In this document: piece by piece, positions 25,954 to 42,758 of the stretch
Layout: the number at the start of each line of letters is the position of its first letter
Numbering within the stretch: position 1 is the first letter of the stretch
Made by a program: the position numbers and the translations under genes
The notes under the pieces: model-generated
Told to the model about the DNA's origin: nothing
What the model saw: the letters and a program-made list of their open reading frames with translations, nothing else
The model's database searches: none
Assembly (NCBI GenBank): GCA_025454525.1
Contig: JALOOG010000011.1
Coordinates: forward strand, 1 to 62,193
Reading direction: 5' to 3'
Source: Anaerolineae bacterium
GTDB taxonomy: Bacteria; Chloroflexota; Anaerolineae; Aggregatilineales; Phototrophicaceae
Length of the DNA: 62,193 bases

Positions 25954-27246
25954 TTAGTGCGTGAGCGCTTGCTCTAAGGTGAATTGTTCGGTCTCGGTTG
26001 ATCCTTCTAACGCCTTGGTGGAGGTTTGTCCGCCCGTGATGATCTCTTGGAGCGCGTCAAAGTACCCTGTTCCCACAAACGCTTGATGTTTCACCGCGCC
26101 GTAACCGTGTTGTTTCTCCGAGTCAAACTCCGCGTCTTGTAAACGTGAATAGGCGGTCATACCTTCATCACGATATTGGCGGGCCAATTCAAACATGCCG
26201 TAATTCAGTGAGTGGAAACCGGCCAAGGTGATGAATTGGAACTTGTAACCCATTGCCGCTAATTCACGTTGGAATTTCGCGATCGTCACCGCGTCTAAAT
26301 GGCGTGACCAGTTGAACGAGGGTGAGCAGTTGTAGAATAACAACTTATTCGGGAATTTCTCGCGGATCGCTTCGGCAAATTGACGGGCTTCATCTAAATC
26401 GGGATGCGAGGTCTCGCACCAGATCATATCTGCATAAGGCGCATAAGCCAATCCACGCGAGATCGCCGCTTCTAAGCCATTCCGGACATAGTAAAAACCT
26501 TCTGGACTCCGTTGGCCGGTCATAAACGGTTGATCATAAGGATCAATGTCACTGGTGAGCAGTGTGGCCGCGTCTGCATCCGTGCGGGCGATGATCATTG
26601 TCGGCACGTCCATCACATCGGCAGCCAAGCGGGCCGCGATGATCTTACGGACAAACTCTTGCGTTGGCACTAACACTTTGCCGCCTAAATGTCCGCATTT
26701 TTTCGCCGAAGCGAGTTGATCCTCAAAATGGACACCGGCTGCCCCTGCTTCGATCATGGCCTTGGTCAATTCAAAGGTGTTGAGAATCCCTCCGAAACCG
26801 GCCTCACCATCGGCAATTAACGGCACAAGCCAATAAGGGCCACGTTTGCCTTCTGAATGTTGGATTTGATCGGCACGCAATAGCGCGTTGTTGATCCGGC
26901 GCACCAATTGCGGCACACTATCCACCGGATAGAGACTTTGATCGGGATAAGTCGAAAGGGAGTCGTTGGCATCGGCGGCCACTTGCCAACCGCTGACATA
27001 GATCGCTTTTAACCCAGCGGCGATCATCTGAACCGCTTGCGTTCCAGTGAGCGCGCCTAAAGCGTTGATGTAATCTTCACGGTTTAAGAGATCCCAAAGT
27101 TGTTCCGCCCCATTACGGGCTAAGCTATACTCGATGTGAAACGATCCCCGTAAGCGGATCACTTCTTGGGCATTATACGGACGTTGAATGCCTTTCCAAC
27201 GCGGACGGGTATTCCATTCTTGGGTGATTTGTTCAGCGTTACGCAT
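25954..27246 (-). CDS. aceA: Isocitrate lyase
   Basis: Glyoxylate-shunt enzyme that splits isocitrate into succinate and glyoxylate. The active-site motif KKCGHLGGK is intact (Cys184), and the FEDQ and WCETSHPD segments of the PEP mutase/ICL superfamily are present. The 430-residue length is that of the bacterial ICL form. It lies 12 bp downstream of aceB on the minus strand, making an aceBA operon driven by the promoter near 28859-28888. Confidence 0.97.
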
Positions 27247-27258
27247 GGGTGAAACTCC

Positions 27259-28806
27259 TTATAAGTAGTCGTAAGCAGGTAAGGTTAAAAAGTCAACAAA
27301 ATCGGGTGATTTAGACATTCGTGCAAATAGATCGCTTGCCAAGTCAAATTTCCCTTGTTGATAACGTGCTTGGCCAAGTTCTTGGGCGATCGCCTCTAAT
27401 TCTTCTTCCAACATCGCATCAAATAATGCCGGATTTAAGGTTTGTCCGTTATCCAATGTGATCCCATGTTTGAGCCATTGCCAACATTGCGCCCGTGAGA
27501 TCTCGGCGGTCGCAGCATCTTCCATGAGATTGTAAAGGGGAACACAACCATTTCCCCCTAGCCATGCCTCTAGATATTGCAGACCGACTTTAAGATTCCA
27601 CCGTAAACCGTGTTCGGTGATCGTGCCTTGACTAGGCGTTAATAGATCTTGCGCTGTGACCTGCACATCATCTCGTTGACGTTCGATCTGATTCGCTTGT
27701 GGCATCAAGCGATCAAATACTTCTAACGCCGTCGTAACTAAGCCGGGATGCGCGACCCATGTCCCATCATGGCCATCGTGTGCTTCGCGTTCTTTATCTG
27801 CCCGCACTTTGGCAAAAGCCTGTTCATTAGCGATCGGGTCATGTTTGATCGGGATTTGTGCGGCCATCCCACCCATCGCATGAACGCCTCGACGATGACA
27901 CACCTTGATCACGTATTGTGCGTAAGCCCGCATAAAGGGGACGGTCATCGTCACTTGTGCGCGATCTGGTAAGACAAATTGTGAATGTTGACGTAATTTT
28001 TTGATGTAGCTAAAGATGTAATCCCACCGTCCACAATTTAAACCTGCTGCATGATCGCGCAATTCATATAAGATCTCGTCGGCCTCAAATGCCCCTAATA
28101 ACGTCTCGATCAACACGGTCGCCCGGATCGTGCCGCGTGGAATGTGGAGCGCATCTTGGGCAAAGTTAAACACATCATTCCATAACCGAGCTTCTAAGTG
28201 GCTTTCAAGTTTGGGTAGATAGAAATACGGCCCCGATCCGCGTTCTAATAACGCTTGGGCGTTGTGAAAAAAATAAAGCCCAAAATCGAATAATGCCCCT
28301 GGTATTGGGCGATCCTCCACTACAAAATGTTTTTCATCTAAATGCCAACCTCGCGGCCGCACCATCAACACCGCCGGATGTCCATCCAATTGATAATGTT
28401 TGCCGTGATCCGCTTGATACGTGATCGTGCGCCGCACTGCGTCCCGTAAATTGATCTGACCTTGCAACAAGTTATCCCAAGTTGGCGCGTTGGAGTCTTC
28501 AAAATCTGCCATGAACACTCGCGCCCCGCTATTTAAGGCATTGATCACCATTTTGCGATCCGTGGGGCCGGTGATCTCCACCCGTCGATCTTGTAAATCC
28601 GTTGGAATTGCCGCGACTCGCCACTCCCCTGTCCGAATGTGAGCGGTTTCTGGTAAAAAGTCTGGCAATTCACCCGCATCGATCGCTTGTTGGCGCGTTT
28701 GTCGCAACTTCAACAATTGATCCCGACGTGACGTAAACTCTTGTGCCAATTTGGTTAAAAAATGTTGCGCCTCTGCCGTAAGCATCTCGCTATATTCCGG
28801 CGGCAT
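27259..28806 (-). CDS. aceB: Malate synthase (isoform A)
   Basis: Condenses glyoxylate with acetyl-CoA to malate. The 515-residue length fits isoform A. Visible features are [39 protein letters not shown] and the [13 protein letters not shown] metal-binding strand. The start ATG is preceded by AGGAGGGGG. It is the first gene of the aceBA operon. The operon allows growth on acetate or fatty acids, which fits the acyl-CoA synthetase fusion elsewhere in the window. Confidence 0.97.
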
Positions 28807-28971: not shown

Positions 28972-28993
28972 GGCACATCAGATTTGATGTGCC
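28972..28993 (-). terminator. Terminator of the ilv-leu operon
   Basis: Perfect 9-bp stem GGCACATCA / TGATGTGCC with a 4-nt loop, 17 bp after the leuB stop on the minus strand and followed by TTTCCTCTTC. Confidence 0.75.
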
Positions 28994-29010: not shown

Positions 29011-30072
29011 TTATAAAGCAGCTTTCACAGTAGCGCTAAATTCAGATGTGCTGATAAACGATGAACCCCGTGAGGTAATATCGGCAGTGCGAGCGCCGGC
29101 CTTTAAAGCACTATCGATCGCGTTTTCGATCATGAGCGCTTCAGTCTCTAAGGCAAAGCTGTAACGTAACATCATCGCCACACTTAAAAACATACCGATC
29201 GGGTTGGCTTTGCCTTGCCCTGCAATATCGGGGGCCGATCCGTGAACAGGTTCATAAAGTCCGAAAGTGCCGTTTCCAAGTGAGGCGGAAGGCAACATCC
29301 CCAATGAACCCGCTAAAACCGACGCTTCATCGCTTAAAATATCACCAAACATATTTTCCATAACCAACACATCAAACGATGCCGGACGGGTTAACAAGTG
29401 CATAGCACACGCATCTACTAAAACATGATCTAACGCCACATCGCTGTAATCCTCGTGGACTTGCGTCACCACACGTCGCCATAAACGCATCGATGCTAAC
29501 ACATTGGCTTTATCGACAGATGTCACCTTGTTACGCCGTTTTTGCGCGGCCCGAAAGGCAACATGCGCGGCCCGCTCCACTTCCGGCACACTATAGTACA
29601 TTGTGTCGTATGCGTCTGCCCCTTGATCCTGCTCCTGACGCTTGCCAAAATAAAGTCCTCCGGTCAATTCGCGCACGATTAACAGATCGACTCCCTCTAA
29701 TAATTCGGCGCGTAACGGCACATGCTCAAACAAGGCCGGATAGGTTTTAACCGGACGCAAATTCGCAAATAAGCCGAAATGTTGACGCAATTTTAATAAG
29801 CCCTGTTCAGGTCGGACTTTTGCGGTCGGATCTGACCATTGGGGCCCCCCTACCGCTGCCAATAAGATCGCATCTGCTCCCTCACAGGTTTGAATCGTTG
29901 ACGCAGGCAAGGGATCGCCTGTTTGATCGATCGCGATCCCACCGATCAGCGCTTCTTGATAGCTAAATTCATGTCCACACTTGGCCCCTATCGTGTCTAA
30001 GAGATTGAGGGCGGTCTGCATCACTTCGGGGCCGATCCCATCCCCCGGCAATACTGCAATCGTCGCTTTCAT
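29011..30072 (-). CDS. leuB: 3-isopropylmalate dehydrogenase
   Basis: NAD-dependent oxidative decarboxylation in leucine synthesis, and likely also of 3-methylmalate in the citramalate route to isoleucine. Motifs: LPGDGIGPEVM, RELTGGLYFGKR, VDKANVL and the metal and NAD loop NMFGDILSDEASVLAGSLGM. The 353-residue length is typical. It is the last gene of the operon, 34 bp after cimA, and is followed by a terminator. Confidence 0.97.
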   Translation of the reverse strand: MKATIAVLPGDGIGPEVMQTALNLLDTIGAKCGHEFSYQEALIGGIAIDQTGDPLPASTIQTCEGADAILLAAVGGPQWSDPTAKVRPEQGLLKLRQHFGLFANLRPVKTYPALFEHVPLRAELLEGVDLLIVRELTGGLYFGKRQEQDQGADAYDTMYYSVPEVERAAHVAFRAAQKRRNKVTSVDKANVLASMRLWRRVVTQVHEDYSDVALDHVLVDACAMHLLTRPASFDVLVMENMFGDILSDEASVLAGSLGMLPSASLGNGTFGLYEPVHGSAPDIAGQGKANPIGMFLSVAMMLRYSFALETEALMIENAIDSALKAGARTADITSRGSSFISTSEFSATVKAAL

Positions 30073-30106: not shown

Positions 30107-31681
30107 TTAAACATTGACCACATCGTAAGCAATCTTTAAACCATATTCCACACTATCCACCAACGCCAACCAACTCGCTTGAATGATGTTAGTCCCCGCG
30201 CCAACGGTACTCCACCGTTTCGCGCCATTTTGGGTATCGATCAAAACGCGGGTCGTGGCGGCCGTGCCGTTCGCCCCGTCCAAAATACGCACTTTGTAAT
30301 CGGCTAATTGGAAGTCGTGCAGTTGTGGATAACGCGGGATTAACGCTTTGCGGAGTGCGAGATCTAACGCATTCACCGGCCCATTGCCTTCGGCGGCAGT
30401 ATGGATAACATCGCCTTCAAGGTCAATTTTAACCATCGCTTCGGCCAATTGTCCGCGTCCGCGCCGATCTTCGACAATCACCGTAAAATCGATCAAAGTG
30501 AACAGGGGTCGATAGTCGGATTGTTCACGATACAAACGTACCGCGATAGAGGCTTCGGCCCCTTCAAACACATATCCGACATTTTCAAGCGCTTTGATCT
30601 TATCTAGCACACGTATGGCCGCCGCGTCGGTGACATCAAGGCCAAATTCTTCGGCCTTGCTCAACACGTTGCCACGCCCAGAGAGATCTGACACTAAGAT
30701 CCGCATCTCGTTGCCCACTAACGCGGGATCAATGTGTTGATAGCTATCGACATTGCGCCGAATCGCCGCTACATGAATCCCGCCTTTGTGAGCAAATGCG
30801 CTTTTACCGACATACGCCAGATGTTGATCCGGTGCGAGATTCGCGATCTCGGCGACAGTACGTGATAGATGGGTTAAGTGACGTAATGCACCTTCCGGCA
30901 CACAATAATAGCCCATTTTGATCTCTAAGTCCGGGATGATACTGCATAAGTTGGCATTGCCACACCGTTCCCCGTAACCGTTGATCGTGCCTTGGACTTG
31001 GGTCGCACCGCCTTGTACCGCCGCTAAGGTATTCGCTACGGCTAATTCCGCGTCGTTATGGGTGTGAATACCTAGTGGGGTTTCAGGGAACATGGCACGG
31101 ACAATTTCAACTAAACGGGTGACTTCCCAAGGCAACGATCCGCCGTTGGTATCGCATAACACGATCCAATCCGCTCCTCCGTCTACGGCCGCTTGAAGCG
31201 TTTGCAAGGCATAGTGAGGATCCAATTTTGAGCCGTCAAAAAAGTGTTCCGCGTCATAAATCACCTCTTTACCAAGCGTTTTGAGATAGCGCACGCTGTC
31301 ATAGATGATCCGCAAATTTTCTTCCGGCGTGGTTTGTAATACTTCGGTGACATGCAGCATTGACGTTTTTCCGACTAACGTCACCACAGGCGTTTGAGCA
31401 TCCACTAAGGCGCGGATGTTTTCATCGTCTTGGGGTTGGCTATGCTTGCGACAAGTTGAACCAAAGGCGGCGATCCGTGCGTGTTTGAGCGTGATCCCTT
31501 GGATTGCCTCAAAATAGGCCGCGTCTTTAGGGTTTGATCCGGGCCATCCCCCTTCAATGTAAGCGACACCCAAATCATCTAACAGGCGGGTAATCCGCAA
31601 TTTATCGGCTACCGAAAGCGAAATCCCCTCACGTTGCGTCCCATCGCGTAATGTGGTGTCGTAGATGTAAACTTGTTTCAT
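30107..31681 (-). CDS. cimA: (R)-citramalate synthase
   Basis: Condenses pyruvate and acetyl-CoA to citramalate, opening the threonine-independent route to 2-oxobutyrate and isoleucine. The HMGL-like TIM barrel starts YDTTLRDGTQREGISLS, has the HTHNDAELAVANTLAAVQGG metal-binding segment, and is followed by a C-terminal LeuA-type allosteric domain (about 400-520). The 'GTQREGISLSVADK' start and IEGGWPGSNPKD region separate CimA from the true LeuA at 34147. Similar aldolases (homocitrate synthase) are less likely given the operon. Confidence 0.93.
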   Translation of the reverse strand: MKQVYIYDTTLRDGTQREGISLSVADKLRITRLLDDLGVAYIEGGWPGSNPKDAAYFEAIQGITLKHARIAAFGSTCRKHSQPQDDENIRALVDAQTPVVTLVGKTSMLHVTEVLQTTPEENLRIIYDSVRYLKTLGKEVIYDAEHFFDGSKLDPHYALQTLQAAVDGGADWIVLCDTNGGSLPWEVTRLVEIVRAMFPETPLGIHTHNDAELAVANTLAAVQGGATQVQGTINGYGERCGNANLCSIIPDLEIKMGYYCVPEGALRHLTHLSRTVAEIANLAPDQHLAYVGKSAFAHKGGIHVAAIRRNVDSYQHIDPALVGNEMRILVSDLSGRGNVLSKAEEFGLDVTDAAAIRVLDKIKALENVGYVFEGAEASIAVRLYREQSDYRPLFTLIDFTVIVEDRRGRGQLAEAMVKIDLEGDVIHTAAEGNGPVNALDLALRKALIPRYPQLHDFQLADYKVRILDGANGTAATTRVLIDTQNGAKRWSTVGAGTNIIQASWLALVDSVEYGLKIAYDVVNV

Positions 31682-31744: not shown

Positions 31745-32359
31745 TTACGACACGGCTAACGTGTTGATGCGATCACGATGATCAACTTCATAGGATTGGA
31801 TCTCGTTTTCGAGGCCCAATAAAAAGCCTAATTGATCGACTCCGTTTAAGAGGCAGTATTTTGAAAACGGGTCGATTGGAAACGTGATCGCCCGTCCATC
31901 TGGGAGCGTCAAGGTTTGTGAGGCGAGATCAATGCTCACTTCTGAAGTAGGATCTTCTTGCGCTAAGCTGATCAATTGTTGTTGGGTGTCGGCATCGACC
32001 ACCACCGGTAACAACCCATTTTTCAGCGCGTTATTCTTAAAAATATCGGCGAAATAGGTGCTAATGACCGCTTTGAATCCCGCTCCCATTAAGGCCCAAG
32101 GAGCATGTTCCCGCGATGATCCACACCCGAAATTATGGCCGGCGATCAACACTTGCGCGCCTTGGTATGCGGTCTGATTCAGAGGAAATTCTGGTTTCGG
32201 GCTACCATCGGCGTTATAACGCCAATCCGAAAAACAGGCCGATCCTAATCCATCTTTATCGGTCACTTTGAGATAGCGGGCCGGGATGATTTGATCGGTG
32301 TCAATATCGTTAATCGGAAGGGCGACCGTTCGCCCTTGCACTGCTGAAAATGCTTCCAT
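31745..32359 (-). CDS. leuD: 3-isopropylmalate dehydratase small subunit
   Basis: Swivel-domain subunit that pairs with LeuC to isomerise 2- to 3-isopropylmalate (and citramalate to 3-methylmalate). It has [14 protein letters not shown] and the [17 protein letters not shown] active-site loop. The 204-residue length is normal. It begins 2 bp after the leuC stop, a typical coupled pair. Confidence 0.97.
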
Positions 32360-32361
32360 CG

Positions 32362-33786
32362 TTAGACTCTTTCCAATAATTCACGCGGATCGGTGATCAC
32401 CCCGTTGATCGCGGTTGCTACAGCCGTTAGGGGACTGGCTAAGAAGGTACGTCCACCTTTGCCTTGACGGCCTTCAAAATTGCGATTACTGGTGCTGACT
32501 GCATACTCGCCCGGTTGCAATTGATCGCCGTTCATGGCGATGCACATAGAACATCCGGCCTCACGCCATTCTGCACCGGCCGCCCGGAAGATCTGATCCA
32601 AGCCTTCGGCCTCCGCTTGCGCTTTGACACGCTGTGAGCCGGGAACTACCATCATCCGTACCCCTTCGGCCACGCGCTGCCCTTCGATCATTCGCGCCGC
32701 TTCACGAAGATCGGTAATGCGCGAATTGGTGCAACTGCCCACAAATACCACATTCACCGCTTTACCTAAAAGCGATTGTCCCGGTTGCAGATCCATGTAT
32801 CGTAGCGCTTTATCTAACGCGATCTTTTGGCTAACGTCGCCTAAATGATCAGGATCGGGAACGCGATCGGTAATTTTCATACCCATGCCCGGATTCGTGC
32901 CATACGTGATCATCGGGATCAACGCATCGCCATCTAACACCACTTCAGCATCAAAAGTCGCTTCAGGATCGGTGGGTAAGGTACGCCATTGTGCAACGGC
33001 CCGATCCCAGTCCGCGCCCTTGGGGGCATAGGTGCGGCCAGCGATGTAATCATAGGTGGTGTCATCGGGTGCGATCATACCGGCCCGCGCCCCGCCTTCG
33101 ATCGACATATTGCAGATCGTCATCCGGCCTTCCATGCTTAAAGCGCGGATCGCCGATCCCATGTATTCGAGGACATACCCTGTCCCACCGCCGACTCCGA
33201 TCTTGGCAATGATCGCTAAGATGATGTCTTTGGCGGTCACGCCAGGTTGTAATGTCCCATCCACACGGATCGCCATGGTTTTTGGTTTGCTCTGTAACAG
33301 CGTTTGAGTCGCGAGAACATGCCCTACCTCGCTTGTGCCGATCCCAAATGCTAATGCGCCGAATGCGCCATGCGTGCTAGTATGGCTATCACCGCAAACA
33401 ATCGTCATGCCCGGTTGGGTAAGCCCTTGTTCCGGCCCAATCACATGCACGATCCCTTGATTTTCTGTTCCCAAGGCATATAGCGGAATCCCAAATTCTT
33501 GGCAATTCTTGGTCAAAAAGTCCAATTGGAACGCGGCTTGTTGATCGGTCACTGGGATGATTCCATCCAAGTTACGCGGAGTCGTGGGGGTGCTGTGATC
33601 CATCGTCGCTAGGGTTTTATCCGGTCGACGGACTTTTAGGCCACGTTCGCGCAAGAGTGTAAACGCTTGAGGTGAGGTGACTTCATGCACCAAATGCAGA
33701 TCAATATAGAGAACCGCCGGAGTTTCGGCAGTCTGGGGTTTTACAAGGTGACTATTCCAAACTTTCTCAAAGAGTGTTTGCGCCAT
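32362..33786 (-). CDS. leuC: 3-isopropylmalate dehydratase large subunit
   Basis: Aconitase-family subunit carrying a [4Fe-4S] cluster. The cluster cysteines are in [15 protein letters not shown] and in GCSMCIAMN. The substrate loops [19 protein letters not shown] and [12 protein letters not shown] are present. The 474-residue length matches bacterial LeuC. It sits 68 bp after the small DUF4177-like gene within the ilv-leu operon. Confidence 0.97.
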
Positions 33787-33854: not shown

Positions 33855-34130
33855 TTACATGAATTTGGGGCGCTTCAGGTAATACACCCGACGCAACATC
33901 CCTTCTTCGTTGACCAGATATTCCACTGTAACCAGTTCCCAACCTTCTTCGCCTAAAAATGCAAGGACAGTTTCAGGGAATACGTCTGGTTCTTCCACCC
34001 GTTTATGTTGACCATCACTTTGATAATAGGTAACAGTGACCCCATAAACGGCCGTAAATTCTTTGGTGTCATGGTCTTTTTTGCTAAACAAATAGGTGTA
34101 TAAGACATGACAATATTCCCACTTTTGCAT
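33855..34130 (-). CDS. Small DUF4177-like protein
   Basis: 91 residues. The N-terminal KWEYCHVLYTY, the central LGEEGWELVTVEY and the C-terminal RRVYYLKRP match the pattern of DUF4177 proteins, which are small proteins of unknown function. It lies between leuA and leuC, and co-transcription with a biosynthetic operon is its only functional clue. Confidence 0.65.
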   Translation of the reverse strand: MQKWEYCHVLYTYLFSKKDHDTKEFTAVYGVTVTYYQSDGQHKRVEEPDVFPETVLAFLGEEGWELVTVEYLVNEEGMLRRVYYLKRPKFM

Positions 34131-34146: not shown

Positions 34147-35748
34147 TTAAGGATGTTTCAGACTAAGTGTAGCCGCTTCCCCTTCGGGTTTCATCTCGCC
34201 ATATCCTAACACAGCTAACATACGATTTAACGCAGCCAAATAAGCCTTGACACTCGCTACCACAATGTCCGTGTCCGCGCCATAGCCTCCGAAAGAGCGC
34301 TCATCCCCTTCTGGGCTGATTCGCACGGTCACTTCACCCAATGCATCGATCCCGGCAGTAACACTATGCACGCTGTATTCGATCAGGGTGTTGGGGACTT
34401 TCACGATCGCGTCTATGGCACGATAAGCCGCATCTACCGGCCCCGTACCCACGGCAGCATGAATAAATTCGGCCGAATGATCCGCTTTCCGCATTTTGAT
34501 CGTAGCGGTGGGCATTCCCATCGTGCCGCAGGTGACTTGAATATCATCCATACTGAAAATCTCGGCGGGTTTATGAAATTCATCGGCGATCAATGCTTCT
34601 AGATCCGCGTCGGTCACATTTTTCTTGGCATCAGCGAGTTCTTTAAACCGGCCGAACACTTGATTCAGTGCGTCCCCTTCGATCGTATAACCCAATTCTT
34701 GTAGCCGGACTTTCAGCGCATGGCGGCCGCTATGTTTGCCTAATACCAAGCGACTCTGATGCAATCCGATCGTTTCGGGAGTCATGATCTCAAAAGTGCT
34801 GGCATTTTTAAGCATCCCGTCTTGATGAATCCCGGATTCATGGGCGAACGCATTTGCACCGACGATCGCTTTATTTGGTTGCACCGGCATTCCCGTGTAA
34901 TTACTCACGATACGGCTGGTTTTCATGATCTCACGGGTGTGGATTCCGGTGGTTAGTCCGTAATATTGTGGACGGGTGTGCAAGGCCATCACCACTTCTT
35001 CAAGGCTAGTATTGCCAGCCCGCTCCCCGATCCCATTGATCGTTACTTCGACTTGGCGCGCTCCGGCCATCACCCCCGCTAGAGAATTAGCCGTTGCCAT
35101 ACCAAGATCGTTATGACAATGAATTGACCAGATCACACCGCTGCCGGGTCCCGCGCCGGGGGTTTCGGCGATCAAAGTAGCGATCAATTCGCCCCATTCT
35201 TGCGGCATGACATATCCTACCGTGTCGGGGATATTGAGCGTGGTTGCACCACATTGCACGGCCAAAGCACACACTTCGATCAAGAATTGCGGATCGGCTC
35301 GGCCAGCATCCATCGGGCTAAACTCAACATCCTCGCACAAACTTTTTGCATAAGTGACCGCCTTGCGAACGATCTCTAAGGCCTCTGGTTTAGTGGTCTT
35401 GGTGATGTAATTCAGGTGGTAGTCGGACACCCCTAAAAAGGTATGAATGCGGGGTTTTGCCGCTAATTTCACCCCTTCCCAGCAGGTTAAGATGTCTTTT
35501 TCGATTGCACGAGACAAACCACAGATCACGGGACCATCGAGTGTTCCGACCTCTTGCGCGATCCGTTGCACAGCCGCTAAATCATCCGGTGATGCGGCGG
35601 GGAAGCCCGCTTCGATAATGTCTACGCCAAGTTTGGCCAATTGGCGGGCGATCTCCAACTTTTCCGCACTGCTCAACGTTGCGCCGGGGCTTTGTTCCCC
35701 GTCGCGCAAGGTGGTATCAAAAATGAATACGCGATTATTCGCTGACAT
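34147..35748 (-). CDS. leuA: 2-isopropylmalate synthase
   Basis: First committed step of leucine synthesis: 2-oxoisovalerate plus acetyl-CoA to 2-isopropylmalate. The barrel begins [17 protein letters not shown], has the [21 protein letters not shown] metal site and [15 protein letters not shown]-terminal allosteric domain (about 390-520) should mediate leucine feedback. The 533-residue length is standard. Distinguished from CimA at 30107 by its start motif and the HQDG loop. Confidence 0.96.
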
Positions 35749-35763
35749 GATCGCCTTCTTTAT

Positions 35764-36612
35764 CTAGATAAATTTGTACTGATCTACATCGATCACGGGT
35801 TGATACCCCAACTCTTGATAAATGTGATTTGAGGTAGGATTTGCGAGATCGGTATACAAAAACACGAACTTGAGGCCTTGATCTAACGCACGCTGACTCA
35901 CCGCTCCCACGCAAGCACTGGCATAACCGCGATTACGAAATGGTGGTGGGGTATAAACCGCCCCTACACGTCGGCCATGAGGGGTACGTCCAGTAAGGGC
36001 GGCCATCGAAACCGGATGACCCTGATCAACCCAGAGGTAAACTTCACGAACTTTTCCCTCAATTGCCCGATCCACCCATTTTTCAGCTAGGTCGAATGGC
36101 ATTTCCTCCAAGGCCTCACGGTTAAATGCCAATAACCACTCGATCAATAGATCACGATCCTCGATCGCGCCCAAACGGATCGTACCAGCTACCCCTTTCG
36201 GCATATTCACGCTTTCCAACTGATAGATCCGTTCGGCAAGATCCAATTCAAAAGCCCGCCCGCTGATCGTCTGCCAATGTTCAGCAAACGCACGGCTGAT
36301 CCTTTTGATCGCGTTGACCTTATCCAATTGTGGATAAAGGGTGTAAACATCCTCCGCGATCTTGAAGATCGCGGAAGTGGTCATCTCTGAAAGCAACAAG
36401 TTATAGGGAAGCGTCATCATCGCACAACCGACGATTTGACCCCGGTCTTCAACACAAGCAAGATACAAAGGAGGTTCAGGGTTAGCTGTTTGCATCAATA
36501 CGTATCCAATGCCCAACAATAGATTATGTTGTGCCTCATCTCGCATCAAAAACGCTTCGACTAGCGGGTAAAACTGCTGAATATCGCTAAACCGCTTCAC
36601 CTCCAAAGCCAT
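35764..36612 (-). CDS. GNAT-family N-acetyltransferase
   Basis: 282 residues. The C-terminal half (about 135-280) is a GNAT fold with an acetyl-CoA loop FRNRGYASACVGAVSQRAL and a final LYTDLANPTSNHIYQELGYQ. The N-terminal half looks like a diverged second GNAT-like domain, as in many YdgE/FR47-like double proteins. The substrate is unknown. It lies between leuA and ilvC with 15- and 6-bp gaps, so it is co-transcribed with the biosynthetic genes although no such role is established. Confidence 0.8.
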   Translation of the reverse strand: MALEVKRFSDIQQFYPLVEAFLMRDEAQHNLLLGIGYVLMQTANPEPPLYLACVEDRGQIVGCAMMTLPYNLLLSEMTTSAIFKIAEDVYTLYPQLDKVNAIKRISRAFAEHWQTISGRAFELDLAERIYQLESVNMPKGVAGTIRLGAIEDRDLLIEWLLAFNREALEEMPFDLAEKWVDRAIEGKVREVYLWVDQGHPVSMAALTGRTPHGRRVGAVYTPPPFRNRGYASACVGAVSQRALDQGLKFVFLYTDLANPTSNHIYQELGYQPVIDVDQYKFI

Positions 36613-36618
36613 CTCGGT

Positions 36619-37629
36619 TTACTCCTGTTCCTTGATCTGTTTGGCATTTAAAAACGGCATCATCGCCCGTAGATCGGTGCCGACTTTCTCTAGCAAAAGA
36701 TCGTGTTCACCACGACGACGATTTAAAAAGTTTTGCCGTCCGTTTTGATTTTCGGCGATCCATTCTTGCGCGAATTGACCACTTTGAATCCGTGATAACA
36801 CGCCGGCCATTTCTTCCTTGACCATTTGCTCAAATTGATCGCCAACCATATAACCACCATATTCAGCGGTGTCGCTCACGCTATACCACATATAGCTAAG
36901 CCCGCCCTGATACAGCAGATCCACAATCAGCTTTAATTCATGCAAACATTCAAAATAGGCGATCTCCGGTTGATACCCCGCTTTTACTAAGGTCTCAAAG
37001 CTTGACCGGATCAATGCGGTGACACCGCCGCATAACACCACCTGCTCACCAAACAGATCGGTTTCTGTTTCTTCGCGGAACGTGGTTTCGATCACCCCGG
37101 CGCGGGTACAACCAACCCCCCGTGCATACGCCAAGGCCATCGCTTTCGCTTGACCAGACGCATCTTGATGCACCGCGATCAAACCCGGCACGCCCGCGCC
37201 TTCGGTAAACACTTCACGCACGCGATGTCCGGGGGCTTTAGGCGCAAGCATCGTAACATCAATATCTGTCGGTGGGACGATTTGCTTAAAGTGAATGTTG
37301 AACCCATGTGCGAACATCAACATCATGCCCGGCCGTAGATAAGGTGCAATCTCTGCTTCATAAACAGCGCGTTGTTTGGTGTCTGGGATCACGATCATCA
37401 ACACATCCGCCGCTTGAGTCGCCGCGGCCACTGTGTGAACGGTTAACCCGTCTGCTTCGGCTTTTGCGCGGCTTTTGCTGCCTTCATGTAAACCGACCAC
37501 TACTTGCATCCCGCTATCATGTAAGTTGAGCGCGTGTGCGTGACCTTGACTCCCATAGCCGATCACCGCGATCGTTTTTCCCTGTAGTAAGCTTAGATCT
37601 GCATCTTGATCGTAGTAGAGCGTTGCCAT
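36619..37629 (-). CDS. ilvC: Ketol-acid reductoisomerase
   Basis: Second step of valine and isoleucine synthesis (acetolactate isomerisation and NADPH reduction). Class I enzyme of 336 residues. Rossmann motif [16 protein letters not shown], and a '[12 protein letters not shown]' cofactor loop that suggests NADPH. The knotted C-terminal domain has [12 protein letters not shown] and [12 protein letters not shown] metal-binding residues. Confidence 0.97.
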
Positions 37630-37665: not shown

Positions 37666-39186
37666 TTAATCCGCTATGATCAGCGGCGACCATACATAAA
37701 ATTGCGCTAAGTCCCAATGTGTATCGTAATCACGAATTGCGAGACCTTCGAGTAAGGTTGTCATGTCACCCGTTTCCGTTTGATACGCGATCATCCCAAC
37801 AGGAAAACCGTCATTATCGAGATCTGCAAATAACCACCATTGACTATCAGGTGAGGTGGTACGATAGCGCATTGTGCCTTCAAATTCGGTGAACGTTTCG
37901 TCTGTTACCGGATTCCAAAATACGATCATCGGTGTCTCTTGTGGAAAGAATCCATGGGTAGCGATATAGACATACTCCCCTACCCACTTGAACTCCGTAT
38001 CGATATTGACAGGTAAAACGTATTGATACGTATTGACACCATCACTCACCACATGGCGCGGAGCTTCATTTTCCGTCCCCGGATAAACGAACAAACCGAG
38101 ATCGCGTTTTGTGTCAAAACTGACTTCAAATAACGGGGAGTCACCTTGATAAAACGGTGTGCGTTGAAAATCACCCGCAGTCGATACGGTCGTCTGTTCC
38201 ACCAACCCATCTATATCACTATAAATCCAATATTTCAGGGTCTCCCCTTCCCAGTGGAATCCGTGATAAGAGACCACCGGAAAAGGAATTTCTTCGATCT
38301 GCATACTCTCTAAAGTCGTGAGATTGAGCAGGTAGGACGCGCTTCGATTTAACACACTCACGGCATAAGTGCGATCGGGTGAAACCGCCTCAACTAACCC
38401 TTGAGCAAATGACTCGAATGTACCTGCGTTGAAATCTAAAATAGCGACTTCTGAAGCGAGTTCCGATTGCAGCAAAAACCGATCTGAGGCCAGTTGTGCT
38501 ACGACATCACCGTATTCAAACGGAAGGTTTTTACCGTTTAAATCGATCTGTTGGAGATAATCTCCCGTAGTGACATCGATCACCCGTGCTTCAACCGTGC
38601 ATTGTGGCGGATCGATGATACCTTGATAGACGACGATCACCCGCGCTTGATTTTCGATCCAATCCAAGTAGGAAAACTGGCAAGGATACTCTCGGATTAA
38701 GCGGCCTTCTTGTAGATCAACCAACCATGTTGTGAAGGCATAAGTATTCCACAAAAAGGCGTAACGTTGATCGGGGCCTAATCGCTCAATATCCAAGTAA
38801 AACGAATTATCGGTCACTTGATCATCCGATACCGGACGGTAAAGCTCTACGAACGATTGATCACGCACATTAAAGCGGTAAATCGCGCTATTGAAGAACT
38901 CCTCCCCTACCGGATTTTCGACTGATACATATAAATTTTGTCCATCCGCTGACCATACTGGATCTAACAATGAGAGATAGCGTTGATCATGGATCGCGTT
39001 AGGTAAAAAGGCTGATCCCCACGTTTGATCCTCATAGTAGGTCAATACCGTGATACCATTTGAGACATCGGAGGCCGGTAAAGCCATAGAATAGAGCGGT
39101 TCAGCGGTGGATTGTGCCTGTCCGATTATGGACAGACACAACAGCACACACCCCAATAACCAACGGGTGAGATAAACAGCTTTCAT
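37666..39186 (-). CDS. Exported beta-propeller-like protein of unknown function
   Basis: 506 residues with an N-terminal signal peptide (hydrophobic run LLGCVLLCLSIIG, cleavage near AQS). The rest is a series of short beta-strand repeats of the type 'DPVWSADGQNLYVSVENP' and 'SPDSQWWLFADLDNDGFPVG', which resemble TolB/WD40-like propeller blades. No catalytic motif is seen. AAGGA precedes the ATG. It is an exported protein gene wedged between ilvN and ilvC (12- and 36-bp gaps), which is odd for this operon. Confidence 0.65.
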   Translation of the reverse strand: MKAVYLTRWLLGCVLLCLSIIGQAQSTAEPLYSMALPASDVSNGITVLTYYEDQTWGSAFLPNAIHDQRYLSLLDPVWSADGQNLYVSVENPVGEEFFNSAIYRFNVRDQSFVELYRPVSDDQVTDNSFYLDIERLGPDQRYAFLWNTYAFTTWLVDLQEGRLIREYPCQFSYLDWIENQARVIVVYQGIIDPPQCTVEARVIDVTTGDYLQQIDLNGKNLPFEYGDVVAQLASDRFLLQSELASEVAILDFNAGTFESFAQGLVEAVSPDRTYAVSVLNRSASYLLNLTTLESMQIEEIPFPVVSYHGFHWEGETLKYWIYSDIDGLVEQTTVSTAGDFQRTPFYQGDSPLFEVSFDTKRDLGLFVYPGTENEAPRHVVSDGVNTYQYVLPVNIDTEFKWVGEYVYIATHGFFPQETPMIVFWNPVTDETFTEFEGTMRYRTTSPDSQWWLFADLDNDGFPVGMIAYQTETGDMTTLLEGLAIRDYDTHWDLAQFYVWSPLIIAD

Positions 39187-39197
39187 TTTTCCTTGTC

Positions 39198-39776
39198 CTA
39201 GACACTATAACGATGTTCGTTATTATGACCATTTGACCCGATCGGCACAATTGGTTCATATTCCGAGTCTAAGATCCGTACCCCGCGTCCCATGGCAACC
39301 ACCCCCGTTCGCACCATTTCCATGATCCCGATTGGGCGCAATTGTTCGATCACGTTTTCGACTACATCTTCTGGCGCACAAATTTCCACAATCGCGACTT
39401 TCGTCCCGATATCGATCAAGCGGGCCGGAGTACGCTCACAAATTTGTGTCACCGTGTTAAACGAATCGGTGTCATCTGTTCGCACTTTGACCAACGCTAG
39501 ATCGCGGCTTACATGCGGTTCAGCGGAGATCAATTTCACATCGATTACGTTGATCAGTTTAAATAGGTTAGCGACCACTTGACGGGCATCCGCACGTTTC
39601 GCGTCTACCGAGATCGTCATCCGTGACATATAGGGTTTATGGGTGCGTCCAACGGTTAAGCTGTCAAGGTTAAAATTGCGTCGCCGAAACATGCTTACCA
39701 CGCGATTTAACACACCTGGTTTATTTTCAACCAGTGCAACGATCGTATGCTTGGTCGTCTCTTGAGAATTTGGCAT
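39198..39776 (-). CDS. ilvN: Acetolactate synthase small (regulatory) subunit
   Basis: Regulatory partner of IlvB that confers valine feedback inhibition. The N-terminal ACT domain (HTIVALVENKPGVLNRVVSM, then RRRNFNLDSLTVGRT) is followed by a second, C-terminal ALS_ss domain. The 192-residue length is slightly long through a C-terminal tail (about 165-192). It follows ilvB by 17 bp. Confidence 0.95.
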   Translation of the reverse strand: MPNSQETTKHTIVALVENKPGVLNRVVSMFRRRNFNLDSLTVGRTHKPYMSRMTISVDAKRADARQVVANLFKLINVIDVKLISAEPHVSRDLALVKVRTDDTDSFNTVTQICERTPARLIDIGTKVAIVEICAPEDVVENVIEQLRPIGIMEMVRTGVVAMGRGVRILDSEYEPIVPIGSNGHNNEHRYSV

Positions 39777-39793: not shown

Positions 39794-41494
39794 CTAAGCG
39801 GTTTCATTCGGTTTCGGACGGCGGATCATGTTATTTAAAGCGGCCCCGGCTGGCACCATCGGATAAACCATATCCTCTTTTTCGACGACATATTCGATCA
39901 AAACCGGGCCTTGATGACTGTGTGCAAATTTCACCGATTCTTCGATCTCTTCGCGATGTGTGACACGCATTGCTGGAATCCCGAAGGCTTCCGCTAACTT
40001 CACAAAATCGGGGTTAAACATCGGGGTAGCGTGATAGCGTTCTTCATAGAAGATCTCTTGCCATTGGCGTACCATGCCTAAAAAGCCATTGTTGATCACG
40101 GCGATATTAACTTTCACGTTTTCTTGTGCGGCGGTCGCTAATTCGCACATTGTCATCTGGAAACCACCATCGCCTACGATCGCCCAAACATCTTCTTCGG
40201 GCCGTCCAAACTTCGCCCCGATCGCGCCCGGTAATCCGAATCCCATCGTGCCGAGTCCGCCACTGGTGATCATGGTGGAGGGGCGTTGATGTGGGTAGTA
40301 TTGCGCTTCTAACATCTGATGTTGACCAACATCCGTCACCGTCACAGCCTCACCACCCGTATATTTCCACAAGTCATTGATCACTTGGGCGGCCAGCAAA
40401 CCCTCACCTTGATAGTGATGCAAAATATCGCGTTCATTGCTGTCTTCTTGCCAATCGCGAATCTGATTAAGCCATGCGGGATGTGTTTTCTTCTCCACCC
40501 CGGGCAGTAATTGGGTTAACACCGTTCGGAGATCCCCCGCGATGCCAACGTCTACCCGTACATTTTTATTCAATTCAGACGGATCAATATCGACATGGAT
40601 CTTTTTGGCATTGAGCGCATAAGTTTTGAGGTTTCCAGTCACCCGATCATCAAAACGCATCCCTAACGCTATCAATAGATCAGCCTCTTGGATCGCATGA
40701 TTACAAGCTGCATGACCGTGCATCCCCATCATACCTAAGGATAAAGGATGATTTTCTGGCATGGCCCCCTTGCCTAACAGCGTCATTGTCACGGGGATAT
40801 TCCCAATCTCGGACAATTCACGTAGAAGTTGCGTCGCACCGGACATTAACAATCCATGCCCTGCAAGAATGATTGGACGCTCCGCTTGATTGATCAACGC
40901 AAGCGCGGCCTGAACATCCTCTAAGGTGGCTGCTGTAGCAGGATGATACCCCGGTAAGCGGATCGGTTCTTCGGGATAATGAAACTCCATTTTTTCGGTT
41001 TGAACGTCTTTCGGAATATCGATCAACACTGGGCCGGGGCGACCAGAGCGTGCGATGTAAAACGCTTCACGGATCGCGTAAGGGAGTTCTTCAATTGAGG
41101 ACACAAGATAATTGTGTTTGGTAATCGGGAGCGTAACCCCTGTCACATCAGTTTCTTGAAACGCATCTGTACCGATTGAACCGCGTGGCACTTGTCCAGT
41201 GATGCAAACGATCGGGGAAGAGTCCATCATGGCCGTAGCGATACCGGTAACAAGGTTAGTTGCACCGGGGCCACTTGTGGCGATCGCCACACCCACTTTA
41301 CCCGTAGCACGGGCGTAACCGTCCGCCATGTGCGAGGCCCCTTGTTCGTGACGCACTAAAACATGGCGAATCTGGGGATACTTGGTCATCGCATCATACG
41401 TCGGCAAGATCGCGCCGCCCGGATACCCGAAAATGATCTCCACGCCTTCCCGTAGAAGGCACTCCATGACGATTTCTGCACCTGTTAGGATCAT
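39794..41494 (-). CDS. ilvB: Acetolactate synthase large (catalytic) subunit
   Basis: Thiamine diphosphate- and FAD-dependent enzyme that makes acetolactate or acetohydroxybutyrate. It has FGYPGGAILPTYDAM, the catalytic-Glu region VRHEQGASHMADGYAR, and the ThDP/Mg motif GDGGFQMTMCELATA ending in AVINN. The 566-residue length is normal. Being specific to the anabolic form fits its place beside ilvN and ilvC. Confidence 0.97.
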   Translation of the reverse strand: MILTGAEIVMECLLREGVEIIFGYPGGAILPTYDAMTKYPQIRHVLVRHEQGASHMADGYARATGKVGVAIATSGPGATNLVTGIATAMMDSSPIVCITGQVPRGSIGTDAFQETDVTGVTLPITKHNYLVSSIEELPYAIREAFYIARSGRPGPVLIDIPKDVQTEKMEFHYPEEPIRLPGYHPATAATLEDVQAALALINQAERPIILAGHGLLMSGATQLLRELSEIGNIPVTMTLLGKGAMPENHPLSLGMMGMHGHAACNHAIQEADLLIALGMRFDDRVTGNLKTYALNAKKIHVDIDPSELNKNVRVDVGIAGDLRTVLTQLLPGVEKKTHPAWLNQIRDWQEDSNERDILHHYQGEGLLAAQVINDLWKYTGGEAVTVTDVGQHQMLEAQYYPHQRPSTMITSGGLGTMGFGLPGAIGAKFGRPEEDVWAIVGDGGFQMTMCELATAAQENVKVNIAVINNGFLGMVRQWQEIFYEERYHATPMFNPDFVKLAEAFGIPAMRVTHREEIEESVKFAHSHQGPVLIEYVVEKEDMVYPMVPAGAALNNMIRRPKPNETA

Positions 41495-41548: not shown

Positions 41549-42490
41549 TTAATCTCCTAATGTGGGTTGTGACTGACGTACATGAGTCAGCCAGCCATGG
41601 TGATCCTCCCGTTGACCTGAGGTAATCGCAAAAAACACTTCTTGTACTGCTTTGGTAATCGGGCCGGGTTGACCTGTGCCAACTTTGATCCGATCCACCG
41701 AACGGATCGGGGTGACTTCGGCGGCTGTGCCAGTGAAGAAGATCTCATCGGCCAAATACAGCATATCGCGGGCGATCGGTTCAAACCGGATCTCGTAACC
41801 GAGATCGCGCAAGATCGTTAACACCGTATCGCGTGTCACCCCTAGTAAGATTGAATTCCATGCCCCGGGCGTATACACAATCCCATCAGACATCACAAAA
41901 ATATTTTCGCCCGCGCCTTCACTGACATATCCGTTAATATCTAACGCGATCCCTTCGCTAAAGCCGTTGTCGTGCGCTTCCATGCTGATAAACTGGCTGT
42001 TCACATATTGTCCGCCGATCTTGCCTAAGGAGGCGGCCGTTCCGGGTGCGCTTCGCCGCCATGAACTCACTTGAACATCCACGCCATGATCGATCGCATC
42101 ACTCCCCAAATAGCGGCCCCATTCAAACGTGATGATGTAGGTATCGACGCTGTTATGACGGCCTTCGAGTCCCATACGCCCAATCCCACGTATCACCAAC
42201 GGGCGCACATAACAAGACTCATGGCCATTTTGGCGAATCGTCTCTAGTACCGCCGTATCCAACTCCGCCGCGCTGTAAGGCAGATCGATCCGCGCAATCT
42301 TGCAGCTATTCACAAGGCGTTTTGTGTGCGGTTGCAACCGAAATACGGCCGGCCCTTGGGGTGTCGCATAAGCGCGAATCCCCTCAAACACACTTGAACC
42401 ATAATGTAAAGCATGGGTGGTGACATGCACGGTTGCATCTTCCCATCGAATCAACTCGCCATTACGCCAAATCAGCGTGCCATTGTTCAT
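41549..42490 (-). CDS. ilvE: Branched-chain amino acid aminotransferase
   Basis: Class IV PLP aminotransferase making Leu, Ile and Val from their keto acids. 313 residues with ALHYGSSVFEGIRAY, the Lys-bearing SLGKIGGQYVNSQF, and GYVSEGAGENIFVM. It is the first structural gene of the operon, 36 bp downstream of the attenuator hairpin at 42530-42551. Confidence 0.95.
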   Translation of the reverse strand: MNNGTLIWRNGELIRWEDATVHVTTHALHYGSSVFEGIRAYATPQGPAVFRLQPHTKRLVNSCKIARIDLPYSAAELDTAVLETIRQNGHESCYVRPLVIRGIGRMGLEGRHNSVDTYIITFEWGRYLGSDAIDHGVDVQVSSWRRSAPGTAASLGKIGGQYVNSQFISMEAHDNGFSEGIALDINGYVSEGAGENIFVMSDGIVYTPGAWNSILLGVTRDTVLTILRDLGYEIRFEPIARDMLYLADEIFFTGTAAEVTPIRSVDRIKVGTGQPGPITKAVQEVFFAITSGQREDHHGWLTHVRQSQPTLGD

Positions 42491-42529
42491 AAACTCAACA
42501 TCCTTTTGAAAAAATGATCCTCAACAAAA

Positions 42530-42551
42530 AAGCCCCCTTGCTTGGGGGCTT
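42530..42551 (-). terminator. Attenuator terminator hairpin
   Basis: 8-bp stem AAGCCCCC / GGGGGCTT with a 6-nt loop; on the minus strand it runs into TTTTTTG. It lies between the leader peptide and ilvE. Confidence 0.9.
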
Positions 42552-42603
42552 CTGCACTTGATTTCAAACTCGCGCATTTTGCGATTAATCGCCACCCAAG
42601 CGG

Positions 42604-42678
42604 TTATGTCTCGTCCTCAATAATAAGTACGAGCGCAATAAGGCAAATAATGACGATTGATTCGCGTAGCTTCAACAT
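42604..42678 (-). CDS. ilv leader peptide (24 residues, Ile/Leu/Val-rich)
   Basis: ATG at 42676-42678 with AGGA 9 nt upstream and stop TAA at 42604-42606. Of 24 residues, 6 are Ile, 5 Leu and 2 Val; residues 8-20 read IVIICLIALVLII. It lies between a good promoter (42730-42758) and the terminator, exactly where leader peptides of ilv operons occur in Proteobacteria and Actinobacteria. Its purpose would be to sense charged branched-chain tRNAs through translation speed rather than to act as a protein. It is too short for ordinary gene finders. Confidence 0.8.
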   Translation of the reverse strand: MLKLRESIVIICLIALVLIIEDET

Positions 42679-42729
42679 GACACCGTTTCCTAAATGAGCG
42701 CTAAACTTGTGTGCTACCTCACAATCAAG

Positions 42730-42758
42730 AGCATAACGAGGATTAAAAACGCTGTCAA
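42730..42758 (-). promoter_or_regulatory. Promoter of the ilv-leu operon
   Basis: On the minus strand a perfect TTGACA (42753-42758), 17-bp spacer and TATGCT (42730-42735), about 50 nt before the leader peptide start. Confidence 0.75.

Follow-up and report, generated by a model that had tools for sequence, protein, structure and literature searches.

A putative leader-peptide attenuator before an ilv-leu operon of an Anaerolineae bacterium, and related elements before branched-chain amino acid genes in Chloroflexota

The window, by which we mean the whole 62,193-nt stretch of DNA that was analyzed, is one contig of a 5.24 Mb draft genome in 230 contigs, and the closest named IlvE loci are mostly from Chloroflexi and Anaerolineae MAGs (e.g., Chloroflexi bacterium OLB13, 75% identity). 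The window encodes 12 ORFs on one strand from 42490 to 29011 (13.5 kb, ilvE to leuB, the count including a 91-aa ORF). HMM matches confirm ilvE, ilvB, ilvN, ilvC, leuA, leuC, leuD, and cimA, together with an isocitrate/isopropylmalate dehydrogenase. The 12-gene ilv-leu operon proposed in an earlier, sequence-only reading of this DNA is borne out; there was no match to ilvD among the 12 operon ORFs. The operon comprises:

41549..42490, minus strand: ilvE, the first gene (NF005146, 411.7 bits; TIGR01122, 396.6 bits)
39794..41494, minus strand: ilvB (TIGR00118, 772.6 bits)
39198..39776, minus strand: ilvN (TIGR00119, 139.2 bits)
37666..39186, minus strand: 506-aa ORF between ilvN and ilvC, without a match in NCBIfam and Pfam
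36619..37629, minus strand: ilvC (TIGR00465, 446.3 bits)
35764..36612, minus strand: GNAT-family acetyltransferase (PF00583, 4.3e-14)
34147..35748, minus strand: leuA (TIGR00973, 673.2 bits)
33855..34130, minus strand: 91-aa ORF, the twelfth gene in the count, with only a sub-threshold DUF4177 match
32362..33786, minus strand: leuC (TIGR00170, 717.3 bits)
31745..32359, minus strand: leuD (TIGR00171, 199.4 bits)
30107..31681, minus strand: cimA, citramalate synthase (TIGR00977, 718.2 bits)
29011..30072, minus strand: leuB, the last gene (PF00180, 452.7 bits), named from its context
28972..28993, minus strand: terminator-like hairpin after leuB from a pattern scan, a possible operon end

The pattern scan gave 11 terminator-like matches for this region, no more than shuffles yield (mean 13.9). 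Directly downstream of leuB, at 25954-28806 (minus strand), lie two ORFs that by eye resemble isocitrate lyase and malate synthase.

Upstream of ilvE, the minus strand carries an element with the following parts:

42753..42758, minus strand: -35 hexamer TTGACA, read directly from the sequence
42730..42735, minus strand: -10 hexamer TATGCT, read directly, with a 17-nt spacer to TTGACA
42604..42678, minus strand: leader peptide ORF MLKLRESIVIICLIALVLIIEDET, 24 codons from ATG at 42678 to TAA at 42604
42610..42633, minus strand: hairpin H1 (-9.2 kcal/mol in the window), lying within the leader ORF at its 3' end
42591..42602, minus strand: segment 2, the 5' half of the antiterminator (CGCTTGGGTGGC), from sequence and covariation
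42540..42549, minus strand: segment 3 (GCCCCCAAGC), the 3' half of the antiterminator and 5' arm of the terminator, from sequence
42526..42537, minus strand: segment 4, GGGGGC with a T run, forming an intrinsic terminator with segment 3 in the predicted fold

Direct reading of 42758-42526 confirmed the promoter, the 24-codon leader, in which 13 codons specify Ile, Leu, or Val (I/L/V), segment 2, and the terminator, in the order that had been described. The putative promoter (42758-42730) is sigma-70-like. The leader TAA is followed by CC and then GCTTGGGTGGC, such that segment 2 starts 2 nt after the stop. The terminator 5' arm can pair with this segment as GCTTGGG/CCCAAGC plus GGC/GCC around a bulged T, which agrees with the 10 bp and one bulge originally noted, and the terminator itself (GGGGGC at 42537-42532, TTTTTT at 42531-42526) has a predicted fold of -17.7 kcal/mol. 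This terminator is missing from the list of a pattern scanner, probably because its stem runs on into the T run. By itself, the promoter match is at chance level (1 found, against a mean of 1.3 in shuffles) and the single-sequence fold of the element is unremarkable (z -1.39); it is conservation across the family, unlike promoter or fold alone, that raises the element above chance.

Among 36 other genomes of the same family, 34 had an IlvE locus with upstream DNA (G020, without an IlvE match, and G022, with a partial match only, were left out), giving 35 loci with the window included. The element was identified upstream of ilvE in 34 of the 35, as an I/L/V-rich leader ending at a GCTTGGG-like segment and then a matching terminator; in the exception, G010, the element is directly before ilvB (locus L174). 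The search rule (an I/L/V-rich ORF, GGG at its stop, and CCYC beyond) also accepted 13 of 350 shuffled copies, and none of 35 reverse strands or 35 stretches inside ilvE. Of the 34 family leaders, 32 have an exact TTGACA within the preceding 200 nt, where shuffles would give 2.8. A looser rule over a longer stretch (a TTGACA-like hexamer, 16-18 nt, and TA) was satisfied at all 34 family loci (3.6 expected) and at 62 of the 80 further loci introduced below; a stricter rule over a narrower stretch was satisfied at 65 of 114 loci, but at 10 of 34 in the family. These counts point to conservation of a promoter-like site. In the 34 family loci the hairpin is followed by at least three T residues, although the T tract of L006 is poor.

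The two halves of the antiterminator vary together: CGTTTGGG occurs with CCCAAACG, TCTTGGG with CCCAAGA, and GCTGGGG with CCCCTCAGC. For the 34 family rows, the covariation score of the antiterminator is 0.201 against 0.074 in shuffles (0 of 500 shuffles as high), two-sided changes are seen at 5 of 10 pairs (reached by 8 of 500 shuffles), and sliding the pairing partner along this alignment lowers every measure of covariation. The sequence checks suggested with the first reading, when run, showed the leader frame, its I/L/V codon bias, and both competing pairings to be kept in relatives with compensatory changes. At the level of the order, none of six loci (L038-L043) has a leader in the 700 nt before ilvE; in G836, apparently the genome of L038, there is a match to the RNA model about 2 kb upstream of ilvE.

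At 17 of 34 family loci (L008-L010, L012, L014, L016-L021, L023, L024, L028, L029, L032, and L044), the stretch between the attenuator and ilvE contains a second long hairpin, its tail rich in T (e.g., GACGCGCTTTCC...GGAAAGCGCGTTTTTATTT); it is absent before ilvE in the window. Nine loci, L007 and eight of those with the second hairpin, also encode a short ORF whose core (SPWTE ... DALSxxYN, with variants) is conserved and which overlaps the 5' arm of the second hairpin where both are seen; the one such ORF compared with Pfam had no match. The hairpin and ORF could possibly constitute a second, translation-coupled terminator.

An RNA model built from the 34 family rows alone (R1) has one strong match in its own genome, namely this element (96 bits; next E 0.047). 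R1 matches 152 of 396 genomes of the class at E ≤ 0.01 and 54 of 400 genomes of the phylum at E ≤ 0.001, the two samples overlapping. Among 33 other named genomes, which are mostly Chloroflexota and overlap in part with those sampled, R1 matches 24; the nine without a match include both Kouleothrix genomes. Outside Chloroflexota, one of 46 named genomes was matched, at a low-complexity locus (L239). A second model (R2) was built from 102 matches, using 100 of 114 loci (20 of the 34 family loci and all 80 others). At E ≤ 0.001, R2 matches 277 of the 396 genomes in the class sample and 114 of the 400 in the phylum sample; counted by hand, 42 of the latter belong to the class and 72 do not. These tallies are not independent of the fetched loci because the training rows were drawn from these samples.

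As a control for R2, seven of 119 genomes of Acidobacteriota (the phylum of Silvibacterium) were matched at E ≤ 0.001. Of the loci inspected by eye, L250 is of low complexity, and L248, L249, and L251 lie beside ilvD or ilvE-ilvB; these three predicted ILV leaders with a terminator look like real attenuators. L251 carries an ilvB fragment 87% identical to that of the window over 146 aa and an ilvE with 54% identity, for which transfer or a misbinned contig is possible. The control matches in Acidobacteriota and at L239 indicate that E-values near 1e-3 are optimistic; at the stricter E ≤ 1e-6, R2 matches, by hand count, 203 of 396 class genomes against one of 119 Acidobacteriota genomes (L248, beside ilvD).

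The 80 further loci comprise 60 from the class list, taken strongest first (including the family locus L174), and 20 from outside the class; they were chosen by a model that contains the segment 2:3 pairing. Gene context was not used in finding them. The first gene downstream is ilvB at 50 loci (for one, L237, no more than a weak match to a related enzyme was seen), ilvD at 24, and a leuA-like gene at one; the remaining five have no branched-chain amino acid (BCAA) query gene downstream, and at two of these fewer than 1500 bases remain. With L174 excluded, ilvB, ilvD, or leuA follows the element in 74 of 79 outside-family loci. The commonest gene order is ilvB-ilvN-ilvC-leuA (30 loci), then ilvD-ilvB-ilvN-ilvC-leuA (17). 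Related predicted switches precede the same genes in many Chloroflexota.

Paired copies of the attenuator lie close together on one contig in L179 (601-718 and 787-926) and L237 (601-723 and 1478-1602), in both cases upstream of BCAA genes, and on G226:C88 (4568-4686 and 4815-4944). In L184 and L198 a copy of the element precedes a short ORF that by eye resembles the ORF downstream of ilvD in L164; the L198 ORF has no match in Pfam.

In the leader frame, picked at each of the 114 loci as the richest in I/L/V, these make up a fraction of 0.71 of the codons, against 0.18 in the other two frames and 0.39 in the best of three frames of shuffled regions. Leu (30%), Ile (20%), and Val (18%) make up 67.5% of the 1710 residues before segment 2 or the stop, and Phe, Met, Trp, and Ala together about 4%. 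The predicted leader ORF is therefore enriched in codons for the amino acids that the operon makes. A hydrophobic leader peptide with a terminator after it might also be read as a small hydrophobic protein, the hairpin being the ordinary terminator of a short upstream gene. We find this reading barely credible, given that Phe, Met, Trp, and Ala are nearly absent, so that the deduced composition is unlike that of a membrane segment, and that the length and ends of the leader vary while I/L/V stay; it would also leave unexplained both the position before ilv genes and the covarying pairing of segments 2 and 3.

This pairing is better within a locus than between loci: for segment 2 and its own segment 3 it amounts to -18.4 kcal/mol, with foreign ones to -14.1 kcal/mol, and none of 1000 permutations was as good (110 loci, with L015, L213, L224, and L225 left out because their segment 2 is misplaced; misplacement affects at least these four of the 114, which are still in the 114-locus frame, stop, pairing, and hairpin counts). 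In 102 aligned rows, fitted to the model structure, covariation is 0.381 against 0.122 in shuffles (0 of 500 as high), and two-sided changes occur at 9 of 10 pairs (reached by 2 of 500 shuffles); shuffles and permutations alike leave the relatedness of the loci in place. The pattern argues that a mutually exclusive antiterminator and intrinsic terminator, as predicted, have been kept by evolution.

Of the 34 family leaders, 30 stop 0-5 nt ahead of segment 2. At the other 80 loci the leader stop precedes segment 2 in two cases, falls within it in 22, and comes after it in 56, with 53 of these 56 within 16 nt and exceptions at 22 nt (L213, with its misplaced segment 2), 24 nt, and 33 nt. A ribosome footprint of about 26 nt has been given (PMC13236596), and a ribosome at the leader stop would in most cases cover segment 2 at least partly. 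An alternative use of such an ORF is at the level of translation rather than termination, by reinitiation or by freeing the ilvE ribosome-binding site; reinitiation has been proposed to raise translation where leader genes are close to structural genes (PMC4833913), and segment 2 of many relatives contains a Shine-Dalgarno-like GGGAGG. The leader stop is, however, separated from ilvE by 113 nt in the window, a distance that reaches 427 nt among relatives, and the stable hairpin with its T residues recurs throughout the 34 family loci (the poor tract of L006 noted), such that a mainly translational role seems scarcely plausible to us.

Within the family, hairpin H1 is marginal (3 of 34 loci at p ≤ 0.05 against synonymous shuffles; 55 of 1000 permutations over 33 loci). 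Among the 80 further loci, 35 reach p ≤ 0.05 against synonymous shuffles, and in 77 mainly outside-family loci the H1 arms match better within than between genomes (0 of 1000 permutations). Duplexes between the leader and segment 2, as in a 1:2 hairpin, scarcely beat synonymous shuffles (p ≤ 0.05 in 9% of the 34 and 7% of the 80 loci), and a trp-type topology with a 1:2 hairpin is thus not supported. A 1:2 hairpin is not required in all attenuators, and its lack of support here lowers only the claim of a trp-type topology.

Control of the terminator by a riboswitch or T-box, through binding of a metabolite or uncharged tRNA and with the short ORF incidental, would be a further alternative, and T-boxes do regulate ilv-leu genes in Firmicutes. 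No Rfam family reached its threshold at the element, either in the window or in 18 related loci, and the T-box covariance model (RF00230) matched nowhere in the window and not at the element in the 18 related loci. Moreover, the I/L/V leader is conserved, and the modeled element has only about 125 positions; we judge this explanation highly improbable.

From its conserved anatomy, the element is predicted with great confidence to be a transcription attenuator of the leader-peptide (ribosome-mediated) type, sensing the charged tRNAs of Leu, Ile, and Val, and the initial interpretation as an attenuator of the ilv-leu operon is supported by these comparisons. We infer leader translation, ribosome stalling, termination near 42526, and a response to amino acids, as follows. 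When Leu, Ile, and Val are plentiful, the ribosome would reach the leader stop and cover segment 2, allowing the 3:4 terminator to form and transcription to stop near 42526. When one of them is short, the ribosome would stall upstream, the 2:3 antiterminator would form, and RNA polymerase would continue into all 12 genes. Because Leu, Ile, and Val are all frequent in the leaders, shortage of any one should relieve termination, and the switch would very probably turn on the BCAA genes only when those amino acids run short. H1, at the end of the leader, probably acts as a pause that paces RNA polymerase or as a spacer that holds the leader off segment 2.

In the window, the RNA up to segment 3 alone is predicted to fold as the antiterminator (-22.1 kcal/mol), and the best fold retains the terminator when the 13 nt directly following the stop are masked. 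Even with nothing masked, however, the predicted fold of the complete leader contains the terminator, equilibrium folding favoring the terminator. Energies alone therefore do not show a switch, which would rest on cotranscriptional timing.

We advance only tentatively the idea, possible if somewhat doubtful, of a distinct lineage of BCAA attenuators running through Chloroflexota, in which H1 replaces the 1:2 hairpin and the leader stop precedes the antiterminator half in one family but falls within or beyond it in most others. The attenuator would provide a regulator for the whole BCAA pathway in Chloroflexota and, if confirmed, would imply coupling of the ribosome to RNA polymerase in these bacteria; textbook attenuation, which needs coupled transcription and translation, would then be placed in a phylum for which no description was among the matches listed in open-licence papers. 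Should the ILV leaders beside ilvD and ilvE-ilvB in a few Acidobacteriota genomes be genuine, leader-peptide attenuation would be either much older, or more often reinvented, than its reported range suggests. The RNA models make the element a candidate Rfam family.

Among Rfam families, the best sub-threshold match, spanning the whole model, is to the enterobacterial pheA leader (RF01859, Phe_leader; 30.8 bits, below the gathering threshold of 55). The pheA leader has the same order of leader, antiterminator, and terminator, with Phe codons where the window has I/L/V codons. In Escherichia coli, ilvGMEDA, ilvBN, and leuABCD have multivalent or Leu-rich leaders for the same pathway; those attenuators show a 1:2, 2:3, 3:4 topology, whereas here 1:2 is not supported, and in the window, unlike in E. 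coli, one element precedes ilv and leu genes together.

One report held that, ermC apart, leader-peptide attenuators were not known outside Proteobacteria and Actinobacteria before its own Firmicutes his case (PMC2965389), and his attenuators in Firmicutes have since been added (PMC9413887). A regulon survey that included five Chloroflexi genomes confined itself to the Rfam leaders for His, Trp, Thr, and Leu, and suggests a possible origin of such attenuators in gamma-proteobacteria (PMC3766115). Within Chloroflexi, T-boxes have been noted for two genomes of Dehalococcoides (PMC2494555); Leptospira is the only reported source of an ilvB RNA motif (PMC8632094); and Chloroflexi are named among groups with few sequenced genomes or related strains (PMC4833913). 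The suggestion that the element may be new holds insofar as no Chloroflexota BCAA attenuator was among the matches listed in the open-licence literature; novelty is unproven, and as a mechanism it would be a classic one.

Leader-peptide control of BCAA genes is also reported for the Leu-rich attenuator peptide of ilv-leu in Staphylococcus aureus, of the Firmicutes (PMC5794164), a likeness of description rather than of compared sequences. Closer are the ilvB leader-peptide attenuators described in Actinobacteria (PMC1262725; PMC13236596), where, as here, a BCAA-rich upstream ORF and an intrinsic terminator precede an ilvB-N-C operon, as in Mycobacterium ilvB1NC, and where a ribosome at the stop masks the antiterminator, as would be the case here. 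The Mycobacterium tuberculosis sensor, in a different phylum, is described as four codons (LVVI), whereas the leaders here have long runs; compared by description, the operon in the window, unlike ilvB1NC, also holds leuA, leuC, leuD, cimA, leuB, and ilvE. The predicted element belongs in kind to the classic ribosome-mediated attenuators that have been described in Proteobacteria, Actinobacteria, and Firmicutes, and it departs from the textbook in having no supported 1:2 hairpin, in carrying a separate H1 in the end of the leader, and, in most outside-family relatives, in a leader that runs into or through segment 2.
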